A DNA stretch of 28,081 bases from a virus. The stretch is taken from IMG/VR virus record IMGVR_UViG_3300010318_000034, positions 1 through 28,081 of that record; one strand, written 5' to 3'. Made by a program: the position numbers and the translations under genes. A model generated the notes under the pieces. The model searched no databases. It was not told where the DNA came from and worked only from the letters and a program-made list of their open reading frames with translations. Of this stretch, positions 2,234 to 27,298 are shown piece by piece (position 1 is the first letter of the stretch; each line of letters begins with the position of its first letter).

Positions 2234-2240
2234 TATTTAG
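2234..2240 (-). promoter_or_regulatory. CTAAATA box, weak late-promoter candidate
   Basis: The minus strand reads CTAAATA here, overlapping the stop codon of the collar gene that ends at 2237. It resembles the AT-rich T4-type late promoter box (TATAAATA and relatives) and lies about 30 bases upstream of the start at 2203. With only seven bases matched and an AT-rich background, it could be chance. Confidence 0.3.
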
Positions 2241-2803
2241 TTCAATGAACATAGTATAATGTCAACATACCTCACTGCCAAATCAATACCTGTTGAGGCG
2301 GTATCATTAATTGTAGCAGATCCTGAGAATGGGTGACTATGTGATCCACCTCCACCTGCAGGACCAGTAGCATTGGATCCACTGACTTGTCTAGCACCAG
2401 CGTTACTAAAAGGTGTTGATCCGCTTCCACCAGTTGGACCAAATAATGATGGGTGAGTGTGATCTGGTAATTGAGTCAATGAAAGTGTATGATTACCAAT
2501 ATTCTGTCCTGTTCCAGGTGCCAGATTAATTGTAAATGTATCGTTAATGGTTGTTATTAACTGTCCACTACTTGCAGACAACACCGTGGTAAAGTTAGTT
2601 GTTCCTCCAGAACCACCACCAGTACCAGATACAACCCTCAGTGCTTTATTGTCATGTGTCGCTACTTTTGTCCATCCAGTGGGAGCATTTGCTTGGAAGA
2701 AGAACTTCCTCGTTCCTGCTGGATACAACCAGTAAAAGGTGTTGATAGAATTTGCGGAATCTGCCAAATCAAACAAAATTCCTGTCGATGTTAGTCTCGC
2801 CAT
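2237..2803 (-). CDS. Tail collar-domain protein, copy 2 (short fibre / microcystin-dependent-protein-like)
   Basis: This 188-residue protein carries the features of phage tail collar proteins: APTGWTKV near the start, a Gly/Ser/Thr-rich middle, the hallmark LPDHTH, a second His pair (SHSHPFSG) and a hydrophobic C-terminal strand (RYVDIILC). The alternating His motifs resemble metal-coordinating sites in trimeric collar and fibre tips. It begins one base after the stop of its paralogue and shares the same order of motifs, so the two arose by tandem duplication. The N-terminal 30 residues differ from the paralogue, as expected if the two attach at different positions or act as alternate tips. 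Role: virion structural, host contact or baseplate collar. The family is clear; the exact virion position is inferred. Confidence 0.88.
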   Translation of the reverse strand: MARLTSTGILFDLADSANSINTFYWLYPAGTRKFFFQANAPTGWTKVATHDNKALRVVSGTGGGSGGTTNFTTVLSASSGQLITTINDTFTINLAPGTGQNIGNHTLSLTQLPDHTHPSLFGPTGGSGSTPFSNAGARQVSGSNATGPAGGGGSHSHPFSGSATINDTASTGIDLAVRYVDIILCSLN

Positions 2804-2804
2804 A

Positions 2805-3368
2805 TTAATCGAAGTTGCACAGAATTACGTCAATATACTGTAATCTAAGATCAATACTTCCAGATCCACTTGCTGTAAAGTTAATGGATCCTGAGAACGG
2901 GTGTGAGTGTGCTTGTCCCAAACCTCCAGGAGAGTTGACTCCTCCTGTACTATTGCTACCAGGAGTTCTGAATGAACCTCCACCACTAGAAGCGTTTGCA
3001 GTACTACCAACTAGAGAGTTGTGAGTGTGGTCTGGAATCTCACTTACAGACAGAGAGTGACCACCAACCGTACCAGAAACTGGAACATTGGTACTGAACG
3101 ATACCGTCAGATTTTGATTCGTATTGGGAAATACTGTGGTAAAAGAATTACCACCAGCACCAGAAGTTCCACCAAATCCAAAACCACCACCAGTTCCACT
3201 AACTAAACGCAATGCCTTATCATTATGTGCAGTTACCTTAGTCCATCCTGTAGGAGCACTTGCTTGATAGAAAACACTAACAGTGTTTTGTGCAAGAACA
3301 GAATACTTAGAACTTAATGACGTACCATCATCAAAAGTTATCCCCGTAGCGGTTAATGTTGCAGCCAT
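2805..3368 (-). CDS. Tail collar-domain protein, copy 1
   Basis: This 187-residue protein is the first of two tandem collar paralogues. Visible motifs are GITFDDGT near residue 10 (a typical beginning of cyanophage short-fibre proteins), APTGWTKV, a Gly-rich loop (SGTGGGFGFGG), IPDHTH, and AHSHPFSG followed by a C-terminal YIDVILC strand. The downstream copy has the same layout but a different N-terminus. The gene is the first of the late tail block: a GATAAATA box lies about 30 bases upstream of its ATG. It probably forms homotrimers at the tail tip or baseplate, and its variable Gly/Ser/Thr-rich middle is the likely surface for receptor diversity. Confidence 0.88.
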   Translation of the reverse strand: MAATLTATGITFDDGTSLSSKYSVLAQNTVSVFYQASAPTGWTKVTAHNDKALRLVSGTGGGFGFGGTSGAGGNSFTTVFPNTNQNLTVSFSTNVPVSGTVGGHSLSVSEIPDHTHNSLVGSTANASSGGGSFRTPGSNSTGGVNSPGGLGQAHSHPFSGSINFTASGSGSIDLRLQYIDVILCNFD

Positions 3369-4510: not shown

Positions 4511-4752
4511 TTTTCTCCTAAGGAGTATTTGTCAAGATTATACTGTGGTGGATGATGATTGTCAATTTGTGCCTGCAATCTGTTCTCAGACTCATACAAA
4601 GCATTGGTCAATTCTATATTTTCCTCTTCTAATCTCTTAACATCCATAAGAAGAGAAGCATACTTCTCTTCAAGTACATCCACCCGTGAGTTAAGAGATT
4701 CTGTGGGTTCAATTCCCCACTTGTTAAAAAACCAGTAAGGATCTTGTTTCAT
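4507..4752 (-). CDS. Small coiled-coil protein upstream of talC
   Basis: This 81-residue protein has a Trp-containing N-terminus (DPYWFFNKWGIEP) followed by a continuous heptad-like segment (about 20-65) rich in Leu, Glu and Arg, predicted as coiled coil. The tail is polar (HHPPQYNLDKY). No catalytic motif is visible. It shares ATGA overlaps with talC downstream and with the frameshifted gene upstream. The function is unknown; it may be a small dimeric or scaffold-type protein. Confidence 0.75.
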   Translation of the reverse strand: MKQDPYWFFNKWGIEPTESLNSRVDVLEEKYASLLMDVKRLEEENIELTNALYESENRLQAQIDNHHPPQYNLDKYSLGEK

Positions 4753-5819: not shown

Positions 5820-6563
5820 TCACAAACCTAACTGTGTTGCAACGTGCTTTGCAATAACATTATTTGTCTCTTCACCAGGGTGAGAGCAATCTCTTGCATG
5901 ATCAATTATCTTAAATGTAATGCAATCTGGAATATACTTCATATTTGCTTGGAATAATGTAAAGTCTACGTATTTTGTGTCACTCCACATTTGCTGAGCA
6001 GTGATCCTTGTCATCTGCAAGTGCCCATGTATATTTGAGTCATATCTTGACCATGATTTACCCAAATCACTACTATCATCAGTCCAAGAACCACAGTTCT
6101 CAATATAAAATTCTTTTTTAGTATGTGGTGGATACCTGAACAATGTACATCTATTTGCACTTGTCCAAGCAAAGACCACTGCTCTTGGTTTTGGATATAC
6201 CTGTCTTAATATGGCAGAATTATACAGTGAGAATTGCGGACTAGAACCAGGAACTCCCATATTGATTGCAGGAATGCCTGTCATCTTTGTCAATTGTGCC
6301 GATAAAGTCTCATCAATCGCCGCACCAACGCCAAAAACATTAGAACACCCAAAGATTACAATAGAATCGCTCCAAGGTATCTTATTAAACTCTGCTGTTC
6401 TATAGTAATCAGAGTTTAATTTGTATGTTACTATCTTCTGCCTATACTTCCAATCCTTTGGTTGGGTCTTTAGATTCTTTACATACCTTTCTTTAGTGTC
6501 TTTATCATAAAAGGAACATGATCCCCCATCACATCCCCTATCAAACATAGGTAGGAACTTCAT
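5820..6563 (-). CDS. SGNH/GDSL-type hydrolase
   Basis: This 247-residue protein shows the SGNH blocks in order. Block I has the nucleophile in IVIFGCSNVFGVG (Ser74, with Cys replacing the usual Asp before it). Block II Gly lies in NMGVPGSS, and block III Asn137 in AWTSANR. The C-terminal block V DxxH is at D225-C-S-H228 with SHPG. The family includes esterases, lipases and O-acetyl or sulfate-ester hydrolases and also some acyltransferases; many act on glycans. No signal peptide is seen, so it acts in the host cytoplasm or is packaged. It begins with an ATGA overlap right after the carbamoyltransferase, which suggests both act on the same molecule, for example by adding or trimming ester groups on a sugar. 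The substrate is unknown. Confidence 0.82.
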   Translation of the reverse strand: MKFLPMFDRGCDGGSCSFYDKDTKERYVKNLKTQPKDWKYRQKIVTYKLNSDYYRTAEFNKIPWSDSIVIFGCSNVFGVGAAIDETLSAQLTKMTGIPAINMGVPGSSPQFSLYNSAILRQVYPKPRAVVFAWTSANRCTLFRYPPHTKKEFYIENCGSWTDDSSDLGKSWSRYDSNIHGHLQMTRITAQQMWSDTKYVDFTLFQANMKYIPDCITFKIIDHARDCSHPGEETNNVIAKHVATQLGL

Positions 6564-7984
6564 GAAAATATTCTAATGTTGTGTTGTTTAGACCACCGAA
6601 CACAGTCATCCTCATCATTTAGCATTGGTTCACCTTTTATGTTTAAACTTGTGTTTAACAAAACAGGATGTCCTGTTACTCTACCCCAACGCATAAGAAG
6701 GTCATGTAGTCTTGGGGCATCAGACTTTCTCACTGTTTGCAATCTACTTGTACCATCAACATGAACAACTCCACGCAATAATTCTGGAGTCTTACATCTT
6801 ACTGCATGTTGCATAAATGGACTCTCAATCAAGTCATCATGCATATCAAAATACTTTGCAGCATATTCAATAGGAACAACGGGAGCAAATGGTCTAAAAG
6901 GTTCTCTACCTTTTATCTGATTTACCCTATCTTTAATTCCTGGTGCTGTTGGATCTGCTAACAAACTTCTTGCCCCTAACGCCCTGGGTCCAAATTCTGC
7001 TCTACCTCTAGCAAGTCCACAAACCTTATGTTCCATCAGATGATTTACAATGGACATATTCTGCTCCTTTTGAAGGATTTTATATCCAAGATAAGGTGTA
7101 AATGGAACTTTAATTTTTTTATGTGCTAAAACTGCTCCTATAGCAGAACCAGAATCTCCTGGTGCTGGCATTATCCAGACGTTCCTAAACTCATCATAAG
7201 CATGTCTGTTTGCAACACAATTAAGGGCACACCCACCAACCAAAACAAGGTTGTTTGTCCGTACAAGGTTTGCAGCGATCCTCAATATTTTTTTAAAGAG
7301 AATCTCATATACCTCTTGAGTTCCTGCTGCGATGTCCTCTATCGATTCATCTGGACGCCAATCATCACATCCACGATGAAAATTGATTTTGCAATTAAAA
7401 TTTCTATCGATCAACTCTTCTAATATATTATCCTTCAACTTATTCTTATCGCCAAAAGCAGACAATGCCATCAATACATATTCTTCTTCATTTGGTTTAA
7501 ATCCACAACGCTTAGTCATTGCAGAGTACCACAATCCAATGCTATTTGGATACCTTAATTGATATTTTAACTGAACATCTGGACCATTTGCTTCCCAAAT
7601 ACTCAACGTCTTAAACTCACCAATAGCATCTATTACTACAATCGCAGCACGATGGAATTTGCTGGTAAAGTAACCAGCACAAGCATGACTATAATGGTGA
7701 TTAATAAATTTATGCTTACAATCAAAGTGCTTTGTAAAGTTGTACAAGAATGGTCCTTGTCCCGCCATTAACTGTCGCAGTCTCTTTTTAAAAGGATCCT
7801 CATACCAACAGACCAATTCTGGTTCACCATACAATAAAGCATGTTTAATTAGTTGTTCATCTATGTTTGGATCATTCTTTATTTTACTAAAGCGTTCACT
7901 CTCACTAGCAAAAACAAGACTATTATTAGAAAAAACTGCTAAAGCAGCATTATGACTGTTCGCTGAAATTCCCCATGTTATCAT
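6560..7984 (-). CDS. O-carbamoyltransferase of the NodU/CmcH/TobZ family
   Basis: This 474-residue protein has both family modules. The N-terminal YrdC-unlike, kinase-fold part shows GISANSHNAA (His11), SESERFSKIKNDP (14-40 region), HHYSHA at 96-101, VVIDAIGE and the ATP-site VGGCALNCVANR (about 249-260). The C-terminal part shows GPRALGARSLLADP (332-345), KGREPFRPFAPVV and LLNTSLNIKGEPM. The family uses carbamoyl phosphate and ATP to carbamoylate a hydroxyl group on a sugar, antibiotic or Nod factor; phage relatives that carbamoylate 5-hydroxymethylcytosine have also been reported. The length is slightly short (relatives are often 550-600), with losses mainly between the modules. It overlaps the radical SAM gene by 35 bases and is coupled to the SGNH gene. 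No second carbamoylation enzyme is present in the window. Confidence 0.93.
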   Translation of the reverse strand: MITWGISANSHNAALAVFSNNSLVFASESERFSKIKNDPNIDEQLIKHALLYGEPELVCWYEDPFKKRLRQLMAGQGPFLYNFTKHFDCKHKFINHHYSHACAGYFTSKFHRAAIVVIDAIGEFKTLSIWEANGPDVQLKYQLRYPNSIGLWYSAMTKRCGFKPNEEEYVLMALSAFGDKNKLKDNILEELIDRNFNCKINFHRGCDDWRPDESIEDIAAGTQEVYEILFKKILRIAANLVRTNNLVLVGGCALNCVANRHAYDEFRNVWIMPAPGDSGSAIGAVLAHKKIKVPFTPYLGYKILQKEQNMSIVNHLMEHKVCGLARGRAEFGPRALGARSLLADPTAPGIKDRVNQIKGREPFRPFAPVVPIEYAAKYFDMHDDLIESPFMQHAVRCKTPELLRGVVHVDGTSRLQTVRKSDAPRLHDLLMRWGRVTGHPVLLNTSLNIKGEPMLNDEDDCVRWSKQHNIRIFS

Positions 7985-8807
7985 AGCGTTTCTCCCAATA
8001 ACTTACTGGTAATGTTGGGTCTTGTTTGATGTAAGGTTCTACCTTATTTGCTGGACACATTGAACAGAAGGATTCATCCTCTCTATTCAAGAACTCTTCA
8101 AGTTCTTCATCCGTACAATTGACATCCAATGGTTCATATTTTAGATATGGATTCCATTTTTCGTTTAAATTGTATTTGTTTGCTTGCATTGGAAGATATG
8201 CCAATGCAGGGCACTTCCAGAGTTTACCCTCATGTATCTGTAATGCATGTTTTGATACACACTTCTCCCAACTTTTACGAGGATTGTTGTCCTCGTAAGG
8301 CATCATCGTATTACCAAATCCTTTGTATTGAGGTATCCAGTGAGTGTTCGTAAAGTCCCAGAATTCCACATGCACCCCAAGTTCATGTCTCCATGATTTG
8401 GCAAGTTGATAACCCCTTTTGAAGCGTTTTACATAGTCTTTGTGTTTGGTGCTGTGGATTGATATTGCTAAGTTTGTCTGCGTTGCTATTAATGCCTTCG
8501 GAAGATTTGGATGATTGTGTAAAAAACTAGCATTAGATACAAGATCAATTTGTGTGTATGGATCTGGATAAATCATCCTGACCAAATACACAATGTCAAC
8601 CAACTCCTTATTCAGAGTTGGTTCACCACCAAGAATAACAAACGTCTTTGGGGTTATTCTCTGACCCCATGTATATAGCCACTCTCTAGCAGTTTCTAAA
8701 GATAAGTTACCAGAATGTCCATGATTAGAATAATGCGAACAACCCTCACATGTAAAATTACATGCGTGGGTAACGTGCAACTCTATCTGTTTAGTCGTAA
8801 CTTGCAT
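7950..8807 (-). CDS. Radical SAM enzyme with C-terminal cysteine-rich (SPASM/twitch-like) domain, paralogue A
   Basis: This 285-residue protein has the radical SAM cluster motif C16-x3-C20-x2-C23 (HACNFTCEGCSHY), the SAM-binding GGE at 60-62 (ILGGEPTLN) and downstream (beta/alpha) strands such as DLVSNASF. The C-terminal part has Cys183, Cys199 (WKCPAL), Cys231, and Cys248/Cys251 (FCSMCP), a set suited to an auxiliary iron-sulfur cluster. Such enzymes cleave SAM to start radical chemistry on peptides, sugars or other small substrates. It is clearly related to the protein at 11861-12679. It overlaps the carbamoyltransferase by 35 bases and follows two 2OG oxygenase paralogues. Its substrate is unknown; neighbours suggest a carbohydrate or peptide pathway. 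Confidence 0.9.
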   Translation of the reverse strand: MQVTTKQIELHVTHACNFTCEGCSHYSNHGHSGNLSLETAREWLYTWGQRITPKTFVILGGEPTLNKELVDIVYLVRMIYPDPYTQIDLVSNASFLHNHPNLPKALIATQTNLAISIHSTKHKDYVKRFKRGYQLAKSWRHELGVHVEFWDFTNTHWIPQYKGFGNTMMPYEDNNPRKSWEKCVSKHALQIHEGKLWKCPALAYLPMQANKYNLNEKWNPYLKYEPLDVNCTDEELEEFLNREDESFCSMCPANKVEPYIKQDPTLPVSYWEKRYDNMGNFSEQS

Positions 8808-9309
8808 AATTAAAATTAATCAACAGTCTACGGTCTGTTGTTGTACATGTTGTGCCAGTATGTTTTATCCCACACGGGAATATACAAAATCTATTAGCAA
8901 CACTATCACACTTTGTTCCATCCTCAAACAAAGTGTATCCATCATTAGTATTAATATAATAGATTCCTGTTGTTAATGTGTGAGGATAGTCATCATGGAA
9001 TCCATCCATCATTACCTTTAATTTTTCAGTTCTTATCATACAATTCGCTTTGATTCTAGCAATAGAAGACATATTTGTCCTCTCAATCAATGGTTTTAGT
9101 AATTCAAACGCTCTTGGAATGCGAACTTCAAACATTGAATGAATGTATGATGAAAAATGATAGTGCCCATCCCCAATCTGAGCACACCCTGGAACAAAAT
9201 GCCAATTGCAAGAATTTTCTATTGTTCCATCATCTAATTTACCTTCAAAATAAAGACGGATTCTATGAAAATCATCTGGATCTAGGTAGTTATCAATTAT
9301 CTGTATCAT
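8791..9309 (-). CDS. Fe(II)/2OG oxygenase, tandem paralogue 2
   Basis: From the ATG at 9309 this is a 172-residue protein. It has the facial triad GFHDDY (H105, D107) and H150 (GIKHTGT), with Arg160/161 for 2OG, and a double-stranded beta-helix pattern (GIYYINTNDGYTLFEDG, LLINFNY). An ATG at 9456 would add 49 residues overlapping the upstream gene; I reject that extension because the paralogue begins exactly where M50 does (IIDNYL). The two proteins are close relatives and their DNA is similar as well, indicating tandem duplication. Other features include conserved Cys residues (IENSCNW, GCAQ). It overlaps the radical SAM gene by 17 bases. Confidence 0.85.
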   Translation of the reverse strand: MIQIIDNYLDPDDFHRIRLYFEGKLDDGTIENSCNWHFVPGCAQIGDGHYHFSSYIHSMFEVRIPRAFELLKPLIERTNMSSIARIKANCMIRTEKLKVMMDGFHDDYPHTLTTGIYYINTNDGYTLFEDGTKCDSVANRFCIFPCGIKHTGTTCTTTDRRLLINFNYASYD

Positions 9310-9817
9310 AGGTAGAATAGTTAAAGTTAAGAACCAATCTGCGATTAGTATTGGTACACGTTGTTCCAGTATGTTTTGTTCTGGCAGGAAATCTACAAAA
9401 TCTATTAGCAACGCTCTCACACTTTGTCCCATCTTCAAACAAAGTATATCCATCATTACTATTGATGTAGTAAATGCCTGTCATCAAATCACTATTAAAA
9501 TCCGTGTGGAATCCTTGGGTAAACTCAATTATCTCAGGTGTTTTAATAACACAATTTGCTTTAATTCTAGCAATAGAACACATTCTCTCCTTCTGAATAA
9601 TAGGAGACAATAAATTAAATGAATCGCTTAGAATTGTATACTGCGAAAATATTAACTGAACAAATTGGAAATGTCCATCATTATCCAAAGTAATACCAGG
9701 ATAATACATCCAAGTACATGAATTATGAGTTGCTCCACCATCCATATCTCCCTCAAAATATGCACGGATAGTGTCATATTCACGTTGAGGAAGGTAATTG
9801 TCAATAATCTCAATCAT
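9293..9817 (-). CDS. Fe(II)/2OG oxygenase, tandem paralogue 1
   Basis: This 174-residue protein starts at the ATG at 9817; a TTG directly before it is the other possible start. It shows H104-x-D106 (GFHTDF), H149 (TKHTGT) and Arg159/160, with the same GIYYINSNDGYTLFEDGTKC block as the downstream copy. Family chemistry is hydroxylation or another C-H oxidation using 2-oxoglutarate and O2. The ATG overlaps the preceding gene by eight bases, and the gene forms an unbroken chain oxygenase - oxygenase - radical SAM - carbamoyltransferase - SGNH. Differences from the paralogue are concentrated in the region between about residues 38 and 80, a possible substrate site. Confidence 0.85.
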   Translation of the reverse strand: MIEIIDNYLPQREYDTIRAYFEGDMDGGATHNSCTWMYYPGITLDNDGHFQFVQLIFSQYTILSDSFNLLSPIIQKERMCSIARIKANCVIKTPEIIEFTQGFHTDFNSDLMTGIYYINSNDGYTLFEDGTKCESVANRFCRFPARTKHTGTTCTNTNRRLVLNFNYSTYDTDN

Positions 9818-10364
9818 CAATATACCCCGTTTTTTTCAACATCTCAACTGCTTCATCAAAAGACTTATAAAGAATCTGAAGACAAATGCACTTGCGATCC
9901 GTCATCCCGACTTCTGTTGGAATAACAGAATGGGGTTTAGATACATCCAAAAGATATGCATCTCCTGGGTGTGCCATAAACCTTACTGATTTTTTTAGAT
10001 GACCCTCATGAAATATTGCACCATTCGTTTGATTGGCAATCTTTTGCGTCTCAATCTCAGTTGATGGTGGATAATAGAATTGAGTAATACATCTACTGGT
10101 TTTAATATAAAAGTTGACAATCGCCTCAATGTCACTATCAGTATGTGGTGGAATTTGATAGTTCAATTCCATCAATGACAAAGTACATTTGTCTCTATGA
10201 TCTTCTGGAATCACTTGCAAAAGATCTTCATCATTTGTGGTGTGAACATAAGAGTATCGAATACCCATAAATCCAACGGGAGTATCAACCCCATATTCGA
10301 TCTTACTTCCAGTTTTACTGTAATGGTCAACAACGAATTGTTTGTTCAGTTTGCGATAAAACAT
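9810..10364 (-). CDS. Fe(II)/2OG oxygenase of aspartyl/asparaginyl hydroxylase-like type
   Basis: This 184-residue protein has iron ligands H74-x-D76 (IPPHTDSD) and H145 (SKPHSVIP), with R157 (TDRKCICLQI) for 2-oxoglutarate. Before H145 a short strand and turn (AHPGDAYLLD) matches a beta-helix core. It resembles enzymes that hydroxylate protein side chains or peptides rather than TET/JBP-type DNA oxidases. A strong AGGAG lies seven bases before the ATG at 10364. It follows the HNH gene by ten bases and precedes the pair of oxygenase paralogues; being first in this chain, it likely sets its expression level. Target unknown. Confidence 0.8.
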   Translation of the reverse strand: MFYRKLNKQFVVDHYSKTGSKIEYGVDTPVGFMGIRYSYVHTTNDEDLLQVIPEDHRDKCTLSLMELNYQIPPHTDSDIEAIVNFYIKTSRCITQFYYPPSTEIETQKIANQTNGAIFHEGHLKKSVRFMAHPGDAYLLDVSKPHSVIPTEVGMTDRKCICLQILYKSFDEAVEMLKKTGYIDD

Positions 10365-10374
10365 TTATAGACTC

Positions 10375-10875
10375 CTATGCATAACTATATTCACGCCATT
10401 CTGGCACGTTGCAATCTGCCAAGTCAAATGCAACTGAACTCCATGGTGCTCTTGGTTGTTTCCTGAGTTTTAACTTTGTATGTTCCAATAATTTATCACT
10501 CTTAAGAGTATTACATTTTGAGCAAGCAACTACTAAATTATCCCAACTATCTTTACCACCTTTACTCCTCGGTATTACATGATCTATAGTAAGTCTGGTA
10601 GTAGCACCACAATATTGACAGGAATTCCTATCTCTTTTATAGATCATAGATCTTGTTGGGCGGCACTCTGCAAGATAATTAACTGGAATTCTAATGTAAT
10701 TTAATAGTCTAACAACTCTAGATGAAAGTACTTGTACCTTTTGCTTTAGAACTAAAACTACCGCTCTCTTCCAATTTGTGAAATTGATTGGTTCATAACT
10801 TGAATTGAGAACTAGAACCGTTTGATAAGGTGCGATCTTTAAGTGGTCCATACAAGTTACTAGGTGTTGGGACAT
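10375..10875 (-). CDS. HNH endonuclease
   Basis: From the ATG at 10875 this is a 166-residue protein with an HNH nuclease core: C86-x2-C89 (CQYCG), the active-site D98-H99 (LTIDHVIPRSKGG), N113 (WDNLVVAC) and C118-x2-C121 (CSKCN), which bind a zinc ion. The N-terminal part (LNSSYEPINFTNWKRAV) resembles an HNH subfamily common in cyanobacteria and their phages. A TTG at 10938 in frame overlaps the preceding gene and is less likely than the ATG, which has GGTGA upstream. It may be a free-standing homing or nicking enzyme that mobilises this segment, or a DNA-maturation nuclease. The ten-base gap to the downstream oxygenase and the four-base gap upstream suggest co-expression. Confidence 0.88.
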   Translation of the reverse strand: MSQHLVTCMDHLKIAPYQTVLVLNSSYEPINFTNWKRAVVLVLKQKVQVLSSRVVRLLNYIRIPVNYLAECRPTRSMIYKRDRNSCQYCGATTRLTIDHVIPRSKGGKDSWDNLVVACSKCNTLKSDKLLEHTKLKLRKQPRAPWSSVAFDLADCNVPEWREYSYA

Positions 10876-10879
10876 TATA

Positions 10880-11113
10880 TCACCGATACATCCTATCTGA
10901 CAAGTCCAAGACAAAAAGAATTTCTTCAATGGTATCAAGCGTTCCTTGACTGGATTTAAGAATCTCCCTCTTCTTCCTCACGGCATTCATCTCCTTAAGG
11001 ACTTTTGGATTATTCTTAAGCCAAAGATACTCATCATCTGTGATGTCATCGAATTGACCCTTGTTTATCTTAGTGACTATACTAAAGTATTTAATCCTGT
11101 CTGTAGCGTTCAT
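10880..11113 (-). CDS. Small helical protein, unknown function
   Basis: This 77-residue protein is charged and helical (TDRIKYFSIVTKINKG, DEYLWLKNNPKVLKEMNAVRKKREIL), with an acidic C-terminus ending DLSDRMYR. No catalytic motif is seen. It shares an ATGA overlap with the upstream gene and ends four bases before the HNH ATG. Function unknown; small charged proteins next to HNH genes are common in phages but that is not enough to give a role. Confidence 0.68.
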   Translation of the reverse strand: MNATDRIKYFSIVTKINKGQFDDITDDEYLWLKNNPKVLKEMNAVRKKREILKSSQGTLDTIEEILFVLDLSDRMYR

Positions 11114-11871
11114 GTTTTCGATGGGTGCATAAAGTCAACAACTATTACACAACGGTAATACTTATTTGCCACTACAGGAGGTGGCATTACTGGTTGGTGA
11201 TTAATGTGTGAGTGATGAATTAATAATGAATTCTCATCACCAGGAATAATAATCTCTCTATCACCATTCTCAATAAGAGTTCCATATATCCTAGATGGAT
11301 TGTTCAGATAATAAATCATTCCCAGGTCAAAGTTCTCATGACTATGAGTATTCCTATAGTTTATGTAGAGTTCATTCTTGTAATCATCCAAATTAGTTCC
11401 CTTCATCCTCTTCGCCCAATATGATTGGACCTTGTATTCTTTAACTTTTGGATCTTTTGTTATCTCTGCATAATTGTATAGATGTTTCTTCACCAATCTA
11501 AAAAAAGTATACCAACTTGTCTTATGAACTAACTTTCTTTTGGGTAGTTGATTTGTTGCCTCTACTGACCTATCCCATTTATCCTCACAAACTCTCAACT
11601 CATCATCAATCTCTTCAAGTAAGTTGTCCATATGATATCTTGTGAGCATGTTATATGCTCTATAAATGGTATTCCCACAAAAATCAAAATACTCAAAGTC
11701 CCTATCATCATTCCAGTATGGATCCTCACAACCAGTTGGACCAACTACCCTGAATGATCTATAATATTCATCTCTAATGATCTCATCAAGTCGCTTACTC
11801 GAAGATACTCCTGCCTTATCTGCAAGTTGATTCAAAAGATCTTCCTGATCTTTTGTTAAATCAAGTGTCAT
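11110..11871 (-). CDS. Divergent 2OG oxygenase-like protein (C-terminal beta-helix), unknown target
   Basis: This 253-residue protein has an unusual helical N-terminus (about 1-110), with acidic and aromatic segments. The C-terminal half resembles a double-stranded beta-helix of the phage 2OG-Fe(II) class: NTHSHENFDLGMIYYLNNP (His176, His178), GTLIENG, IPGDENSLLIHHSHINHQ and R240 (YRCVIVVDF). The putative iron-site residues fit the H...H...R order of that class, but the acidic ligand is not clear. It may be a genuine oxygenase, or a structural relative that has lost iron. It lies between the second radical SAM and the HNH region, overlapping the former by 11 bases. Confidence 0.55.
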   Translation of the reverse strand: MTLDLTKDQEDLLNQLADKAGVSSSKRLDEIIRDEYYRSFRVVGPTGCEDPYWNDDRDFEYFDFCGNTIYRAYNMLTRYHMDNLLEEIDDELRVCEDKWDRSVEATNQLPKRKLVHKTSWYTFFRLVKKHLYNYAEITKDPKVKEYKVQSYWAKRMKGTNLDDYKNELYINYRNTHSHENFDLGMIYYLNNPSRIYGTLIENGDREIIIPGDENSLLIHHSHINHQPVMPPPVVANKYYRCVIVVDFMHPSKT

Positions 11872-12679
11872 ATTTTTTCTTCCAATAACTTACAGGTAAC
11901 AGGGGATTCTCTGGCGTAAAATAGTCCTCTTTAGCAGGACACATCTTACAAAAAGTCTCCTCCCTACGAGTGAAGAAGTCTTTTAATTCTTCTTTGCTAC
12001 AGTCAGCACTGAGAGGAGTGTATTTGAGATATGGTTGCCATTTGTCTGAGAGGTTATACTTCTCTGCTTGCATTGGGAGATATGCTAGTGCAGGACACTT
12101 CCAAAGTTTACCCTCATGTAGTTGAACACACATCTTAGACACACAAATCTTCCAACTACTTTTGGGATCATTGTCTTCATATGGTTCCATTTTATCACCA
12201 AATCCTTTATATTGACGAATCCAATGGATAATTGAAGGTCTCATCTCTACTGGAGCACCTTTAGCAATCCATTTTTTCATCAAGGCATAGATTGGTTCAA
12301 ACTTCTTTCTGTATTCAGGATCTCCATCAGAGTGAACAGATACACCTAGAGTTGTATTAGTATCAATTAGTGCCTTCCAAAGATCTGGATGCCTATCCAA
12401 AAAGAATCCGTTAGACACAATATCAATTTGAGAGTATCTCCACTTCCTCCTAGTCAAGTAAACAAACTTTGTTAAGTCTTTATGTAAAGATGGTTCACCA
12501 CCCATTAATGTAACTCTTTCTGGAGCAATCCTTCTACTCCAAGCAGTAAACCACTCATCTGCTTGTTCAAGAGTAACCGAACCAGAATGACCTTGGTTCA
12601 TATAATGAGTACACCCCTCACATGTCAAATTACATGAGTGCGTGAGATGTAACTGAATTTCGTGAGGTACTTTTAACAT
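11861..12679 (-). CDS. Radical SAM enzyme with C-terminal cysteine-rich domain, paralogue B
   Basis: This 272-residue protein has C16-x3-C20-x2-C23 (HSCNLTCEGCTHY), GGE at 60-62 (LMGGEPSLH), and C-terminal cysteines 179, 184, 195 (WKCPALAYLPM), 227, 244 and 247 (FCKMCP). Paralogue A at 7950 shares most of these blocks, including QYKGFG, PYEDN, HEGKLWKCPALAYLPMQA and LPVSYW. The main differences lie around residues 108-160, probably the substrate pocket. Radical SAM enzymes with auxiliary clusters often install C-C, C-S or epimer changes in peptides, or act on sugars. It follows a 2OG oxygenase-like gene by one base, so the same pairing of radical SAM and oxygenase occurs twice in the window. 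Confidence 0.9.
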   Translation of the reverse strand: MLKVPHEIQLHLTHSCNLTCEGCTHYMNQGHSGSVTLEQADEWFTAWSRRIAPERVTLMGGEPSLHKDLTKFVYLTRRKWRYSQIDIVSNGFFLDRHPDLWKALIDTNTTLGVSVHSDGDPEYRKKFEPIYALMKKWIAKGAPVEMRPSIIHWIRQYKGFGDKMEPYEDNDPKSSWKICVSKMCVQLHEGKLWKCPALAYLPMQAEKYNLSDKWQPYLKYTPLSADCSKEELKDFFTRREETFCKMCPAKEDYFTPENPLLPVSYWKKKYDT

Positions 12680-12680
12680 A

Positions 12681-13226
12681 CTATCTTATATTACATGCAA
12701 GGACCATTCTCTCTACCGTTGATTGATTGGTTGGAACATAATGTGCTATTGAAGATGGAAATATAACAATAGAACCCTCTTCAATGCCACTTGGTTCATA
12801 TTCCATTACATTACCATCATCCAAACTGTGGAAGGGGGCAATAAATGTTGTAGGTCTATGATAATCAGGATCATATTTAATATAACAGACCACACTTAAT
12901 GCACCCATTCCATGATTATGAACCGCATGAGAGTGTGCGATATTATATATTTGAAACCAAGAATTTTGTACAGTTGGGACTTGATTAAATCCCATCTCTT
13001 TAACACCTCTTTTCAGATCATCAAATAAAATATGTTGAATTATCATATCATATCTACTATCAGAAAGATTGAAGTCAGTTAATTGCTCACCTTCTTCCAT
13101 AATAGGTTTGCTGAAGGTATCATAGACTTGAAGCAATTTTTCCCTTTTACCTTCCCAATCAGTAATTTTGGATTGATAGAAGGGAATTACCCATTCTTTA
13201 ACAAAGTGTTCAGTGGAATTCTTCAT
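12681..13226 (-). CDS. 2OG-Fe(II) oxygenase-like protein of the TIGR02466-like phage type
   Basis: From the ATG at 13226 this is a 181-residue protein; a GTG at 13259 would add 11 residues. The C-terminal beta-helix shows H-x-x-H-x-H spacing in AHSHAVHNHGMGAL (H98-H105), then FIAPFHS, GSIVIFPSSIAHYVP (H162) and R173 (ERMVLACNI). This matches the pattern of phage oxygenases that carry HxH...H...R. The N-terminal part is helical and charged. It ends one base before radical SAM paralogue B. Family assignment is from memory of the motif pattern, and the target is unknown. Confidence 0.7.
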   Translation of the reverse strand: MKNSTEHFVKEWVIPFYQSKITDWEGKREKLLQVYDTFSKPIMEEGEQLTDFNLSDSRYDMIIQHILFDDLKRGVKEMGFNQVPTVQNSWFQIYNIAHSHAVHNHGMGALSVVCYIKYDPDYHRPTTFIAPFHSLDDGNVMEYEPSGIEEGSIVIFPSSIAHYVPTNQSTVERMVLACNIR

Positions 13227-13392
13227 TTCGTCGGCGGTCCAGGTATTCGATGACTTCACTTCTCCATTCCATCAATTCATTAAAGCATTTTTGATTGTGA
13301 GCACATTGACGCAGTTCGCTGTCTGGTTTTAAAACACTCTCGTAAAAAAGACCAAGTGCATCACGACGCTTTTCATGTTTTTCTAGATCCAT
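13210..13392 (-). CDS. Small charged protein, unknown function
   Basis: This 60-residue protein is helical and charged, with two Cys residues separated by five (QCAHNQKCF) and a basic/acidic tail (DRRRNEEFH). The start is well supported: AGGAG lies six bases before the ATG at 13392, within the end of the upstream gene. It overlaps the following gene by 17 bases when the ATG at 13226 is used. Function unknown. Confidence 0.68.
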   Translation of the reverse strand: MDLEKHEKRRDALGLFYESVLKPDSELRQCAHNQKCFNELMEWRSEVIEYLDRRRNEEFH

Positions 13393-13887
13393 TTAGATCT
13401 CCTTTTGCTTTAGTTTGAGTCCACCCACAAGTATCTTCTTACTATCAGAGTATTCTGACATATGTGGGATGTACGAGGAGAATAATAGCACCTTATTTGC
13501 TGAAGGTAGGACTTCATAAGGTTGTCTTAATATTAAAACTGTTTGTCCATCAGTACAAGTATTCAGATATAAAATAAAACTATAATCTTCGTTATGACTA
13601 TGCTTGTGTTCACCCATAGTTCCTCCATTTGAATAGTCTACCAAATGAAGATAAACATATTCTAAATTTTGTCCTACAAATTCTTCACACTTTATTCTCA
13701 AAGTATCAATATAGTTATAAAAGATATCTGCATGAGGAAAATCAAGTAGGTTTAAAGTTGCAAAACAATTTGAACTAAGACAACTTTGTTTATTATCTTT
13801 AAAAAGAGATGGAGCACTTAGGGCAAGTTTAAGTAAAGACTTACAGTATGCAACTATCTTCTCAGATACAAAGAATTCTTTAACCAT
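13393..13887 (-). CDS. 2OG-Fe(II) oxygenase-like protein, divergent
   Basis: This 164-residue protein has a beta-helix signature in its second half: YSNGGTMGEHKHSHNEDYSF (H94, H96, H98, D101), ILYLNTCTDG, KVLLFSSYIPHMSEY (H142) and a final strand (ILVGGLKL). The His-rich loop could supply the HxD/E iron ligands, but the Arg that binds 2-oxoglutarate is replaced by a Lys/Ile region, so activity is uncertain. The gene ends immediately before its neighbour's ATG and begins with an eight-base overlap with the preceding gene. The hydrophobic helix (about 12-30) is not a convincing signal peptide. Confidence 0.6.
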   Translation of the reverse strand: MVKEFFVSEKIVAYCKSLLKLALSAPSLFKDNKQSCLSSNCFATLNLLDFPHADIFYNYIDTLRIKCEEFVGQNLEYVYLHLVDYSNGGTMGEHKHSHNEDYSFILYLNTCTDGQTVLILRQPYEVLPSANKVLLFSSYIPHMSEYSDSKKILVGGLKLKQKEI

Positions 13888-14688: not shown

Positions 14689-14867
14689 CACTCGTTGTAT
14701 TTGATGTAATGTGGTTTTTCAGTGTCAAAGACCGTCCATTTGGCAATATTGAGACACATTAAAATAGTTTCATGTTCTCTGTGTTCTCTTGGTGTTCCTC
14801 GATACATGTAACGACGTTGGAATGCACACTGCCAAACATACTTATAGATCTTATCCTTTTCGGTCAT
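14688..14867 (-). CDS. Very small phage protein (59 residues)
   Basis: The frame opens at the ATG at 14867 and stops at a TGA at 14688-14690. It encodes 59 residues: a basic N-terminal helix (MTEKDKIYKYVWQCAFQRRY), then RGTPREHREHET, a Cys-containing stretch (ILMCLNIAKW) and a polar end. Both boundaries support a real gene: the start overlaps the upstream stop as ATGA and the stop overlaps the next ATG as TGATG. It is easily missed because of its length. Function unknown; no motif recognised. Confidence 0.72.
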   Translation of the reverse strand: MTEKDKIYKYVWQCAFQRRYMYRGTPREHREHETILMCLNIAKWTVFDTEKPHYIKYNE

Positions 14868-15292
14868 GATAAACTAACGGTAATGCGTGGTTCAACATGA
14901 ACGGGATTATGGTACACAAATTTAGGAATGTACAGTCCATCGCCTGGATTTAATGTAACAGAGTCCCCATCATCAAACACATACATCATCTTACCCAAAG
15001 ATTGTACGATCAACACATCCTGATCATCATTATGTCTACCCATTGTAACTGCTTCTTTATGCCTAGAAGAGTAAATATGCATATCACGATATCCATGTCG
15101 GGTAAACTTCGTCTTAATATTTTGAAGTAGTCCAGGAACAACACCACAGTGAATTACCAAATCAGTGGTATCACTAATTTTACTGTATGTTTCTGCTTCC
15201 TTCTCATATGTAATTTGTTGATCAACATGATCCCAAGTAATACCAATAACAAATTGATACTGTTTTGGGTAGTAGCGGTAGTTTTCTGTCAT
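14864..15292 (-). CDS. JmjC/cupin-like Fe(II)/2OG oxygenase, short
   Basis: This 142-residue protein has a cupin core with the layout of ROX/JmjC-type oxygenases: MGRHNDDQDVLIVQSLG (H87-x-D89 and the following strand), YVFDDGDSVTLNPGDGLYIP and FVYHNPVHVEPR (H128, R136). The first part (about 1-70) is a beta-rich entry domain. ROX enzymes hydroxylate His or Arg in ribosomal proteins; here the target is unknown and the protein is much shorter than family members. It lies directly after the helicase with an ATGA overlap (15289-15292), so it belongs to the helicase transcript. I am sure of the double-stranded beta-helix fold, less so of activity. Confidence 0.72.
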   Translation of the reverse strand: MTENYRYYPKQYQFVIGITWDHVDQQITYEKEAETYSKISDTTDLVIHCGVVPGLLQNIKTKFTRHGYRDMHIYSSRHKEAVTMGRHNDDQDVLIVQSLGKMMYVFDDGDSVTLNPGDGLYIPKFVYHNPVHVEPRITVSLS

Positions 15293-16539: not shown

Positions 16540-16545
16540 ATTATA
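16540..16545 (-). promoter_or_regulatory. TATAAT -10 box candidate upstream of the helicase
   Basis: The minus strand reads TGTATAATATC here, a perfect TATAAT box just after the terminator at 16550-16571. It lies 13 bases before the ATG at 16527 and 22 before 16518. No good -35 box is found at the right spacing, so an activator-dependent phage promoter is possible. The same TGTATAAT element appears after the terminator at 20152-20174. Confidence 0.5.
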
Positions 16546-16549
16546 CAGC

Positions 16550-16571
16550 AAAAAGACCCCCCGTGGGGGGT
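16550..16571 (-). terminator. Rho-independent terminator after the half-methyltransferase gene
   Basis: Two bases after the stop codon at 16573, the minus strand has a GC-only stem (ACCCCC paired with GGGGGT, loop of four) followed by TCTTTTTG. The hairpin and T tract fit a factor-independent terminator. It separates the methyltransferase unit from the helicase transcript. Confidence 0.8.
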
Positions 16572-20182: not shown

Positions 20183-23100
20183 TTAGAGACTGTCCAATCG
20201 CGCCTTAAGTTCGTTGATCTGTTCCTGCTGCTCTTTGATTGCCTCAATCAGAACCGCAACCATGTTTGAATATGCAACAGACTTAACCCCATCTGGAGAT
20301 TCAAATACAAGTTCAGGAAGAACCTTTTCAACCTCTTGTGCAATAACACCAATCTCACGCTCTGGTTGACCGATACGATTGAAGTATACACCTCTTAGGT
20401 CAAGAACTTTACTCAGAGCATTGCCAATTCCAACAACATTCTCCTTCAGTCTCTCATCAGAGTTTGCAGTAACAGTACCTGAGAACGTTGCATTACCAGT
20501 GTTTGCAATTCTCAGTCTTTCTTGAGGAGCAGATGCACCAGACCCTTGCGTACCAAAAATCAATCCAAACTGACCAGAGGTTCCTTCAGATACACCTTTG
20601 ATGTAACCACGCTCACCACTGTTACCAATATCATTACCTTCAAATTTAATTCCACCATACTCATACGATGCATTGAGTGCTGGGTCAGTCTGTAAGAATC
20701 TCAGGAAGTTACCATTAAGATCTCCAGTTGTCGCAGCATCAGTTGTAATTAGAACATCATTCTGGAAGGTGGAGATACCAATTGCTTTGATGGTATTAAA
20801 GTTAACCTGCTGATTAAATGTACTAATACCAGTATTAACAATCCAACCGTTTGGAATATTCCAAAGTAACGAACTGGTCCTAAATTCAACGTTATTCTCG
20901 AAGAGAACAGGACCACTTGCATAAAGAGAATATCCTGGTTTTGCTGAGGTTGTCTCAATACCTACGTTAGCAGTTGTTGAGATACCAACACCATCAAACA
21001 CCCAAACGTCAGACACGTTTGACAGACCAGATCCATCTCCTTTGAAGGAACCACTCCAGAGACCAACATAATAGTTGTCTGCTGCTGACTGAATCGGACC
21101 AAACTTCTTCCAATTATTGTCATTAGTGTAGACCCATCCAACTTCTCCACCAGAATTTGGTTCTGCATCATAAACAACATTACCAACGTTACCAGCAACT
21201 TGTGGAGTAGAGATACCAACTGTGTATTCTCTAGCAATTGTCTGATCACCTTGAACAAGTAAACTATTTGCCTCAACAGGACTATTAATAGTTACCTTTT
21301 CATTGAATACAACTGGTCCATTAAATTCAGAGATAATATCATTCTCTTTACCACCATCAACCTTCAGTCCTCTTGCTACTGTAAGTTGTTCTGTAGAATC
21401 AACGTCAAATCCAACTGCGCCAGTATCACTAGTGATGTCCTCACCAGTTACTGTTGGGACTGGTGCATTTGTGATCAAATCTTGACCCGTAGATCCACTA
21501 GTAAACTTGTTAACAGTGTAAGCATTACCTTCGTCATCTAAACCATTATAGAATGGTGTACCACCGTTTACAGATACTGATTGAGAGAGTAGTCTCTCGA
21601 TTTGCTTGAATTGTCTATCTTGTCTTTCAGGAAGAGCGGTTGAATAGTTACCAGGACCAAAACCAAGATATTCAAAGGTGTGTCCAGAAGCACGAATGAT
21701 AGAGTTTCTTCTAAATTCTACTGGTTGGAACTTAACCTTTCTTATGACTGATCCTACTGGGTGTGTTTGTTTTTGCGATCCAAACAATCCACGGAATACA
21801 TCAATAGCAGTGTCTGTAGTAACAGACTCACTGATTCTCATGAATTCATTATCTATTACAAGATAATCACCAACATCCCAACCCATGTGAGTTGCATTTG
21901 TGACTGTCAGAGTATTCAGTGTTGGGTCATTCAATGCTGCTGCCAGACTACTTGTAATTCCAGCATAAGAAGGAACAAGTCTTGAAGATGCTGCCTCATC
22001 AGCAAAGTCAATAAGTGCATCTTGTGCGTTGACACCTGTCTGATAGATAAATCCACCACCAGTAGGTGCGACTACTGTAGTACCAACACCAACTTTGACT
22101 GCAAGACTAATTACATTATATACAGTATCAACACTCCAATGACCATTAATTACTGGAGCGTTAACTCCACCAATAACAATACTATTACCAACTAATAATC
22201 CATGTGACTTATTAGTTGTAAAGCTGGCAATACCAGATATGTTGTCATATGATACTGAACTGATTCCAATTGCTTCACCAGTTAAATATGCAGTAACGTC
22301 GGACAGAACTGCAGAGTTAACGTTAGTAAGTCCATTAGTATTAATTCCAGTTACACTTGCTGGAGCAGCAAATTGCTCTCGATAATAGACAGTGCTTGCG
22401 GATGATACATTTATCTTAGATGTACTTCCCGTTTCAATAGATGTAATTCTATACAGATTATTATAATCGTGGAATCTATCGTCCCTGATACCATCAATTC
22501 TGAATACATCACCAATACTGTTGTGAATTTGTTCAACTGTCAGATAACCTGCGACAAATCCTACAGTAGTACCAATGCCAGTCACCGCAAGAGTGTTACC
22601 AACTCCAAATGCAGAACCACCATCTACAATTTTAACTGCAGAAATTGAACCAGCAGCATCAATCTCTACGTTTGCAGTAGCATATGCACCAGTCGTTGAT
22701 CCAGCAAATCCAACCAACTTAGCATTATATAATGTTTGAACGCTACCAGAACCATCACCATAATTTAAACCTGCACTACTAATTCCAACTTTAGTAATAA
22801 AGTTGAATCCATGGTCATCTTCTGTTGTAATCGTATGTGCGGTTCCAGAAGAAGATTCAATCTCTACAATATTAAATCCTGTTAGATAATCTCTAGTTCT
22901 CTTGTTAATTACTTCCTTTGTAAGACTATTCTTTGGATCATTTACTTCAGTAAGACCAATTGGAGTTGGAAGTGCAAAAGTTCTAGTCTGATTTGGGTCA
23001 GATGTTGGGTTATCTCTATCAAGTTGAGGATAAAGATTTTTGACGGGTTGACTAAATCTAAGTTCTTGGAATGGTGTTACCGCAGGTGTTGCTGAGGAAT

Positions 23101-26043: not shown

Positions 26044-26208
26044 TTACATAGAATCCATCATGTACTCCACTGTATTGGCAACATCATGCATGGCATCTTT
26101 AAGAACTGGTTGTTGACCAGATTCCATTCTCACCATGGGACGACGATTATCAGTAAGGGTCCATCGCCATAATTTCATTTCTTCGCAGTACCAGAGATTA
26201 ATCCTCAT
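26044..26208 (-). CDS. Very small phage protein (54 residues)
   Basis: The frame opens at the ATG at 26208 and ends at TAA 26044-26046, giving 54 residues. It starts MRINLWYCEEMKLWRWTLTD, followed by a basic Met/Arg segment and an acidic helix (KDAMHDVANTVEYMMDSM). It overlaps the preceding gene's stop by 11 bases (26198-26208). The aromatic, patterned N-terminus and the fit in the gene chain make a real gene likely. It is the last gene before the fibre promoter region. Function unknown; no motif recognised. Confidence 0.72.
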   Translation of the reverse strand: MRINLWYCEEMKLWRWTLTDNRRPMVRMESGQQPVLKDAMHDVANTVEYMMDSM

Positions 26209-27298
26209 GTGCTGGGTTACTCCAATCAGATGTAAAATTTCTTAAATACTCAATTTTATCTAGCATATTCTGATTATCAAGAACAAACTCTTCGTTTGCA
26301 AAATGTAATATACAGTTATTCTCCAATGCTAGGTTCATAATATACTTTCTTCTAACAGAGTTGTCTGGAAGAGAGAATATACTAAACATTAAGATATGAT
26401 CAACATTTCCCTTTGTGATTAAATATTCCAAATAATTGTGATTTCTTCCCTCATTATCGCCAGTTTGATGTGGGAATGTGTATCCCATTCTATTACAATA
26501 CTCTTTAACTACTAACGTTTGGAAGTACAAATCAATATTTCTAGTTTTAAATCCTTCATACTCCGCATACATAACTACATTTTGATCGTCAGATATCGTT
26601 ATACTTCGAGATTGAATATCAGTATCACCAAGAATTCTAAAATATGCTCCTGGCCATTTTCGATGGGGTTGTCCATCACGGAGTAAAATTCTAACGTCAA
26701 TACTCATTCGTGTTTTTCCAGTTGTATTTGGAACTGCACCATGAATATGTTCTTGAGTAAACAATAAGAATTGTCCCTCTTTAATATTTACTGGACGACA
26801 AACTCTGTTACATGTCTCTTGAAATTCTTCATACGACCAATCTTGCTCTAAGCATTGCTTGGTAATTAACCGACTTGCGTCAAGATGAATAATTTGAAGA
26901 GAATTACTATCGTATGCATCAGTAAATGGCAACCAGACCGTTCTCATTCCAAGTCCGTTACCAACCCATTTACCTTGATGAAATGGTAATACTGTTCCAG
27001 TCTTATCCTGATTAGGAACTGTTATTCTAATGTTACCAAACTTTTGAACCAGTGCGTCACTAGGCAGAAGAGGGAATACGTATCTAGCAATTATCTCATC
27101 GAATTTGACATAAAAGTCAGTATCTGCGAGATCTTTGCCAATTAATTTTACAAGTTCTCCAATATTTTTTGCTGGGACAAACTCATGCAATAATGCTAAA
27201 TCATTGACATCTGGATAATATTTTTTGACACATTCCAATACAGTATCACTTAAGAAGTAATCTGAAGAATCATAATCATATATTTTTGCGTCAAACAT
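26198..27298 (-). CDS. 2OG-Fe(II) oxygenase fused to a 'sporadic carbohydrate cluster' (LIC12192-like) domain
   Basis: This 366-residue protein has two parts. The N-terminal part (about 1-210) looks like a phytanoyl-CoA/StrG-type oxygenase: GTVLPFHQGKW (H107), WLPFTDAYDSNSLQIIH, EHIHGAVPN (H186) and R197-x-S-I-D. The usual acid after the first His (HxD) is Gly109 here. The C-terminal part (about 230-350: YFQTLVVKEYCNRMGY, HILMFSIFSLP, RRKYIMNLAL, CILHFANEEFVLD) recalls the small LIC12192-type proteins found with such oxygenases in surface-carbohydrate clusters. If right, this is a natural fusion of two usually separate genes. It suggests action on a sugar or polyol. The assignment rests on recalled motif patterns. 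It starts seven bases after the preceding oxygenase. Confidence 0.72.
   Translation of the reverse strand: MFDAKIYDYDSSDYFLSDTVLECVKKYYPDVNDLALLHEFVPAKNIGELVKLIGKDLADTDFYVKFDEIIARYVFPLLPSDALVQKFGNIRITVPNQDKTGTVLPFHQGKWVGNGLGMRTVWLPFTDAYDSNSLQIIHLDASRLITKQCLEQDWSYEEFQETCNRVCRPVNIKEGQFLLFTQEHIHGAVPNTTGKTRMSIDVRILLRDGQPHRKWPGAYFRILGDTDIQSRSITISDDQNVVMYAEYEGFKTRNIDLYFQTLVVKEYCNRMGYTFPHQTGDNEGRNHNYLEYLITKGNVDHILMFSIFSLPDNSVRRKYIMNLALENNCILHFANEEFVLDNQNMLDKIEYLRNFTSDWSNPAHED

Follow-up and report, generated by a model that had tools for sequence, protein, structure and literature searches.

A conserved radical SAM, oxygenase and carbamoyltransferase cassette of uncultured T4-like cyanophages with a possible role in glycan tailoring

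Described systems and layout of the cassette

A Nol-like carbamoyltransferase is found in the lipopolysaccharide/sugar clusters of the T4-like cyanophages P-SSM2, S-CAM3 and S-SCSM1, which lie in hypervariable regions with 2-oxoglutarate (2OG) oxygenases nearby. Radical S-adenosylmethionine (SAM) cassettes have been mentioned in the hypervariable host-recognition cluster of pelagimyophages (PMC7029224), and the cyanophage isolate S-SCSM2R (PQ898602) carries a radical SAM relative together with 2OG genes. Here, we describe a locus in the IMG/VR virus record IMGVR_UViG_3300010318_000034, of which the whole stretch analysed (28,081 bases) is called the window. Between positions 5820 and 13887, 13 closely spaced genes, all on the minus strand, encode two twitch-type radical SAM enzymes, six 2OG-oxygenase-like proteins, an O-carbamoyltransferase, an SGNH-fold protein, an HNH endonuclease and two small open reading frames (ORFs). 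With a probability of about one half, we read this cassette as serving to tailor a glycan or sugar, in a T4-like cyanophage that carries it in its hypervariable host-recognition region.

The locus differs from these systems in several respects. The P-SSM2, S-CAM3 and S-SCSM1 clusters share its setting, but their carbamoyltransferase is longer (28-31% identical to that of the cassette) and is accompanied by heptose, GDP-sugar or transferase genes; no SGNH or radical SAM annotation was present in the stretches compared. The pelagimyophage cassettes are likewise found in marine T4-like phages, in a hypervariable region with tail fibres, and are gained cassette-wise, but they are described merely in passing. 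In S-SCSM2R, the radical SAM relative (42%) has genes for glycosyltransferases and an amidinotransferase, and one of aminotransferase type, around it, with no carbamoyltransferase-SGNH pair in the stretch compared. Finally, the crocagin cgn cluster also combines a 2OG enzyme (CgnC), an SGNH-fold protease (CgnD) and a carbamoyltransferase (CgnI) in one pathway (PMC10070186); the portion of that account consulted describes a peptide precursor and the peptide-binding proteins CgnB and CgnE, but no radical SAM role, and there is no close sequence kinship. The initial annotation of this stretch, made from the sequence alone, knew of no phage system with this exact combination, and our literature search on cyanophage radical SAM and carbamoyltransferase combinations found no description of the cassette either.

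All the ORFs named in that annotation were confirmed, with their positions and strand. In addition to its gene list, the HNH endonuclease and the 77-aa and 60-aa ORFs also lie within the cassette. The order of transcription is oxA, 60-aa ORF, oxB, radical SAM B, oxC, 77-aa ORF, HNH, oxD, oxE, oxF, radical SAM A, carbamoyltransferase and SGNH, with intergenic distances of -35 to +28 nt between neighbours (Table 1). The likely starts of oxF, oxB and the HNH gene were chosen by homologue length.

Conservation and genomic setting

Loci were gathered from IMG/VR with three separate baits (radical SAM A, SGNH and oxC), and the gene order was collinear in all 52. The genes oxA, oxC, radical SAM A and SGNH, the minimal set, were present in 37/37 complete loci, followed by oxD (32), the carbamoyltransferase (31), HNH (28), radical SAM B (27) and oxB, oxE/F and the 77-aa ORF (24 each). 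Ratios of nonsynonymous to synonymous substitution (dN/dS) against three relatives (L002, L006 and L025) were 0.02-0.25 for most genes, the highest values being those of oxB (0.39) and SGNH (0.31), both against L025. As the order is kept in every locus and most genes are under purifying selection relative to these three, the cassette is not a chance assembly. It is one conserved, co-inherited tailoring unit, as had been proposed from the sequence, and its core genes were not found scattered independently. The 52 loci share ancestry, and collinearity alone therefore does not count as many independent events.

The variable make-up of the cassette, with oxE/F and oxB absent from 13 complete loci each and radical SAM B from 10, could also be read as a loose set of auxiliary genes that share a hypervariable site, each acting on its own unrelated substrate; homologues of oxE are indeed widespread outside the cassette. 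The constant presence of the four core genes makes this quite unlikely, as does the recurrence of the combination in another phage lineage. Such independent recurrence is less extensive than the collinearity: in the single-cell virus AG-345-D19, a pair of SGNH-like genes, a carbamoyltransferase gene (44.6% identity) and a distinct radical SAM gene are consecutive, and in several other phages a radical SAM gene directly precedes an SGNH homologue.

The oxE-oxF block (8791-9817) is nearly identical at synonymous sites to that of L002 (dS 0.01-0.04, against ~0.7-1.5 for neighbouring genes), which suggests a recent recombination.

The carriers are uncultured viruses that infect marine and freshwater cyanobacteria. 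They were identified as cyanophages because the sequences of two long relatives, G001 (119 kb) and G002 (126 kb), were read as encoding photosystem proteins of the psbA/psbD type together with structural genes like those of T4. The placement of the cassette in the known hypervariable host-recognition region is likewise deduced from gene content: the gene for the long tail fibre of the window is conserved among cyanophages, the 60-aa ORF is of general occurrence in them (found in 450 cyanophage records, hence not cassette-specific), and in S-SM2 the corresponding interval is occupied by variable tail genes together with three 2OG genes. One contig, filed as a Rhodobacteraceae metagenome-assembled genome (PAHT02000089.1), has the whole cassette with cyanophage helicase, transaldolase and tail genes and is probably a misbinned phage contig. 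Among 50,697 annotated phage records, no match was found for SGNH, oxA or oxC, and radical SAM A had only two; culture collections therefore do not reveal a cassette that is common in metagenomes. A JmjC/cupin-like protein is encoded between the helicase and the cassette in 11/37 complete loci, and an Rfam scan of the window detected no known RNA.

Enzyme families of the cassette

The functional labels of the initial annotation were upheld for the radical SAM enzymes and the carbamoyltransferase by Pfam, and for the SGNH protein by structure prediction and invariant residues. Both radical SAM proteins pass curated Pfam cut-offs (9e-11 and 1.5e-12), with C16, C20 and C23 (CX3CX2C; numbering of A) and the GGEP motif invariant. 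Four C-terminal cysteines (C183, C199, C248 and C251) are also invariant in the alignment, as in twitch-type enzymes, and from these motifs A and B are classed as twitch-type, with one auxiliary cluster predicted. They are paralogues (54% identity); the tree of A and B was used for grouping only, because its branches are long. When the radical SAM profile was searched against PDB sequences, the top match was 7wzv (1.8e-16, most of the protein covered). Viperin and MoaA were rejected as identities, the profile matches being generic and under cut-off.

The six oxygenase-like proteins are supported by family, motif or fold in every case, but the iron-ligand pattern is clear in four only. The HxD/E...H...R/K pattern was found in oxA (as HNE...H...K, with candidate ligands H98-x-E100...H142...K150), oxD, oxE and oxF. 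The two tandem proteins oxE and oxF (56% identity) belong to PHROG 274, and the family alignment has an invariant HxD...H...R. This widespread cyanophage family carries the database label 'DNA endonuclease V' (denV), which looks wrong; for oxE and oxF it was discarded on the basis of the motif and because the oxE profile matched no PDB sequence, T4 endonuclease V included. For oxD, the only matches among annotated phages are distant ones in two Roseobacter phages. No carboxylate ligand is evident in the alignments of oxB and oxC, where HxH patterns are seen instead (H114/H116...H173...R184 in oxB). Although oxB passes the curated Pfam cut-off (1.3e-10), and although oxC, which has no Pfam match, gave an AlphaFold2 model (pLDDT 74) matched by Foldseek to 2OG-Fe(II) oxygenases (best E 1.5e-6), the two are therefore filed as oxygenase-like only. 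They may be atypical oxygenases or not hydroxylases.

The carbamoyltransferase passes Pfam with both domains (Carbam_trans_N 1.5e-40, Carbam_trans_C 5.4e-50). The presence of HHYSH (HHxxH), D119, PAPGD and GRAEFGPRALGARS indicates that it retains the TobZ/NodU active site. With TobZ, NodU and NovN it shares the N and C domains and the HxxxH/D and GRxEFGPRALGxRS motifs, but it belongs to a shorter phage clade (474 aa). A phage carbamoyltransferase of this superfamily carbamoylates 5-hydroxymethylcytosine in DNA (MetaGPA; PMC8670742), and with oxygenases and a DNA methylase nearby, the cassette enzyme could similarly cap hydroxymethylated bases. We consider such DNA hypermodification very improbable. 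The two enzymes are only 26% identical; at the positions of TobZ G421 and R423, both named in PMC8670742, the cassette has G and R but the DNA enzyme C and T; 14 cassette or related records, mostly fragments, yielded no homologue of thymidylate synthase/dCMP hydroxymethylase; and one clade does without the carbamoyltransferase. Indeed, the 6/37 complete loci that do not have it form one clade by similarity, which may reflect a single loss, and keep the radical SAM, oxygenase and SGNH genes.

The AlphaFold2 model of the SGNH protein (pLDDT 90.6) was assigned to the SGNH fold by Foldseek (best E 1e-5), and S74, D225 and H228 are invariant in the alignment. In segment 130-138, where the block III Asn of the oxyanion hole is expected, no Asn is invariant, but R138 is. 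The best Foldseek match is CgnD (1e-5, 14% identity, TM 0.47). Since crocagin biosynthesis unites the three enzyme types named above, the strongest rival to glycan tailoring is a pathway like those of ribosomally synthesised and post-translationally modified peptides (RiPPs), in which the radical SAM enzymes and oxygenases would work on a peptide or host protein, with the SGNH enzyme as leader peptidase and the carbamoyltransferase completing the product. The radical SAM proteins do match peptide-maturase profiles, but these matches are generic and far under the family cut-offs, and CgnD scores barely better than E. coli TesA (2e-5). Moreover, no dedicated precursor was found in the cluster, though one may be encoded elsewhere: the 77-aa ORF is absent from 13/37 complete loci, and the 60-aa ORF, considered as a RiPP precursor, was dismissed for its general occurrence in cyanophages. 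With the relatives of the enzymes situated in glycan loci, peptide tailoring appears unlikely.

Table 1. Positions of the cassette genes and of other features of the window.
Feature	Position	Strand	Description
oxA	13393..13887	-	2OG-Fe(II) oxygenase-like, 164 aa; core gene
60-aa ORF	13210..13392	-	T4-like gene cluster 43
oxB	12681..13226	-	2OG-FeII_Oxy_5 family; likely start 13226 (181 aa)
Radical SAM B	11861..12679	-	272 aa; CX3CX2C, GGEP, auxiliary-cluster cysteines
oxC	11110..11871	-	Predicted 2OG-oxygenase fold with extra N-terminal helical region; core gene
77-aa ORF	10880..11113	-	Overlaps oxC by 4 nt
HNH endonuclease	10375..10851	-	Likely start 10851
oxD	9810..10364	-	2OG-oxygenase-like; candidate ligands H74-x-D76...H145...R157
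oxE	9293..9817	-	2OG-Fe(II) oxygenase, PHROG 274
oxF	8791..9309	-	Tandem homologue of oxE; likely start 9309 (172 aa)
Radical SAM A	7950..8807	-	285 aa; CX3CX2C, GGEP, twitch-like cysteines; core gene
Carbamoyltransferase	6560..7984	-	Short O-carbamoyltransferase, 474 aa
SGNH-fold enzyme	5820..6563	-	247 aa; S74 in G-C-S motif, D225-x-x-H228; core gene
SpoChoClust_2 (2OG oxygenase) and SpoChoClust_1 fusion	26198..27298	-	Carbohydrate-cluster protein, not part of the cassette
Long tail fibre	20183..25999		Conserved cyanophage gene
Collar-type tail proteins	2237..3368
JmjC/cupin-like protein	14864..15292		Between helicase and cassette
Terminator-like GC hairpin and T-run	16556..16571	-	Between methylase and helicase genes; exact in 3 relatives
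TATAAT	16540..16545	-	Just upstream of helicase; near-identical motif at same place in most relatives compared
HNH promoter-like TTGTCA-18-TATAAT	10903-10874	-	Belongs to HNH gene
Perfect promoter TTGACA-17-TATAAT	4537-4565	-	Just upstream of transaldolase gene

Expression signals and proposed role

Two copies of the late-promoter-like motif ATAAATA are present in the window, against 8.4 expected by chance, each ~28 nt upstream of a tail gene (the tail fibre and a collar-like gene), and none is found within or near the cassette there. In 24 relatives, 10 sites were counted in a total of 210 kb of cassette sequence. In G001, 21/23 sites are on the coding strand, many of them 20-41 nt ahead of structural genes and one ahead of a gene in a separate sugar region. 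The terminator-like hairpin and the TATAAT motif divide the tail-fibre-methylase side from the helicase-cassette side, and the latter motif is the candidate start of the helicase-cassette transcript. These sequence signals suggest early or middle expression of the cassette, with the caveat that the TATAAT is unusually near the helicase start.

The same signals bear on a third reading, in which the cassette would decorate the flanking tail fibre or the collar-type tail proteins. It invariably lies between the helicase/tail-fibre side and collar-like genes, and PHROG 274 and 2OG genes adjoin tail genes in ordinary cyanophages too. Such a position is weak evidence, because the region is known to be hypervariable (PMC7029224). 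With both tail genes preceded by a motif that the cassette does not have, and with the hairpin parting the two sides, modification of the virion tail is unlikely.

Tailoring of a glycan or sugar is the reading that we prefer, because relatives of the radical SAM enzymes sit among glycosyltransferase and sugar-nucleotide genes, the carbamoyltransferase has its kin in sugar clusters and a carbohydrate-linked protein is encoded in the window. The cellular radical SAM relatives (35-48% identity) are often found beside glycosyltransferase genes, in 13 of 24 loci (L067-L090), some of them assigned by shared gene cluster rather than by a separate Pfam scan. These include four NodZ-like fucosyltransferase paralogues and a GT2 (L071), GT2 (L074 and L084, with the same cluster in L077 and L079), GT34 (L072), GT28-like (L082, with the same cluster in L073 and L076) and GT25-sulfotransferase with GT2 (L086, with the same clusters in L087-L089). 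The relative in the isolate S-SCSM2R has glycosyltransferase neighbours too. In phage loci (L046-L060), many members have the radical SAM relative with an amidinotransferase-like protein, and L046 has it with UDP-glucose dehydrogenase and a short-chain dehydrogenase/reductase (SDR) epimerase. In cyanophages, relatives of the carbamoyltransferase, which has the TobZ/NodU active site, are surrounded by GDP-sugar, heptose or transferase genes, and SGNH relatives in other phages come right after a radical SAM gene, with more radical SAM genes, an SDR epimerase or an aminotransferase-like gene. Moreover, the window itself encodes a protein in which a 2OG oxygenase of sporadic carbohydrate clusters (TIGR04324) is fused to an LIC12192-type protein (TIGR04323); this fusion has no match in annotated phages.

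The phage loci L046-L060 are large viral clusters with several radical SAM enzymes, 2OG oxygenases and amidinotransferase-like and aminotransferase-like proteins, to which L055 adds a B12-binding radical SAM enzyme. In the phage clusters L186 and L189, a radical SAM gene is followed by an SGNH homologue, a methyltransferase-like gene, further radical SAM genes and 2OG oxygenases.

Several points weigh against glycan tailoring. The glycosyltransferase association (13/24) has no random control, and other neighbours occur in some cellular loci, namely PAP2, fatty acid desaturase, patatin and POR (L068, L078, L083 and L070). Radical SAM, 2OG, SGNH and carbamoyltransferase enzymes are also found in peptide pathways. 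Neither the cassette nor the window encodes a glycosyltransferase; the initial annotation, which had recognised neither this nor a sugar-nucleotide enzyme, was right for the 28-kb fragment only, as the near relatives of 119-126 kb encode heptose, GDP-sugar and transferase-like genes elsewhere (heptose-type and epimerase genes in G001, a GT25 match and strong epimerase-family matches in G002).

What the analysis shows are the gene families, the conserved order, the purifying selection, the kinship with enzymes of glycan loci and the lack of an own late promoter; we infer the substrate, the reactions, their order and the benefit. Radical SAM A, with the help of B where present, would carry out demanding C-H chemistry (for instance oxidation, epimerisation or dehydration) on a sugar or cyclitol unit, which the 2OG oxygenases would hydroxylate or further oxidise. 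The carbamoyltransferase could cap a free hydroxyl using carbamoyl phosphate, and the SGNH enzyme would take off or transfer an acyl or ester group. The outcome would be an altered surface glycan of the infected cell, or a glycan built with the other sugar genes of the phage. A chain in which an oxygenase makes the hydroxyl that the carbamoyltransferase caps, as first proposed, is not borne out in that form: oxB and oxC lack a clear HxD/E, and carbamoylation, being absent from a clade that keeps the other enzymes, can be no more than a late or optional step. With low confidence, we further propose that the product may be a radical-SAM-edited, multiply oxidised and carbamoylated molecule new to viruses, whether a sugar resembling an aminocyclitol or a modified peptide or protein, with which the host surface or physiology would be altered early in infection.

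Phages that exchange sugar-decorating genes can shift host recognition and superinfection. If our reading is true, a compact radical SAM-based cassette would bring to this contest a chemistry for which no description in cyanophages was found.

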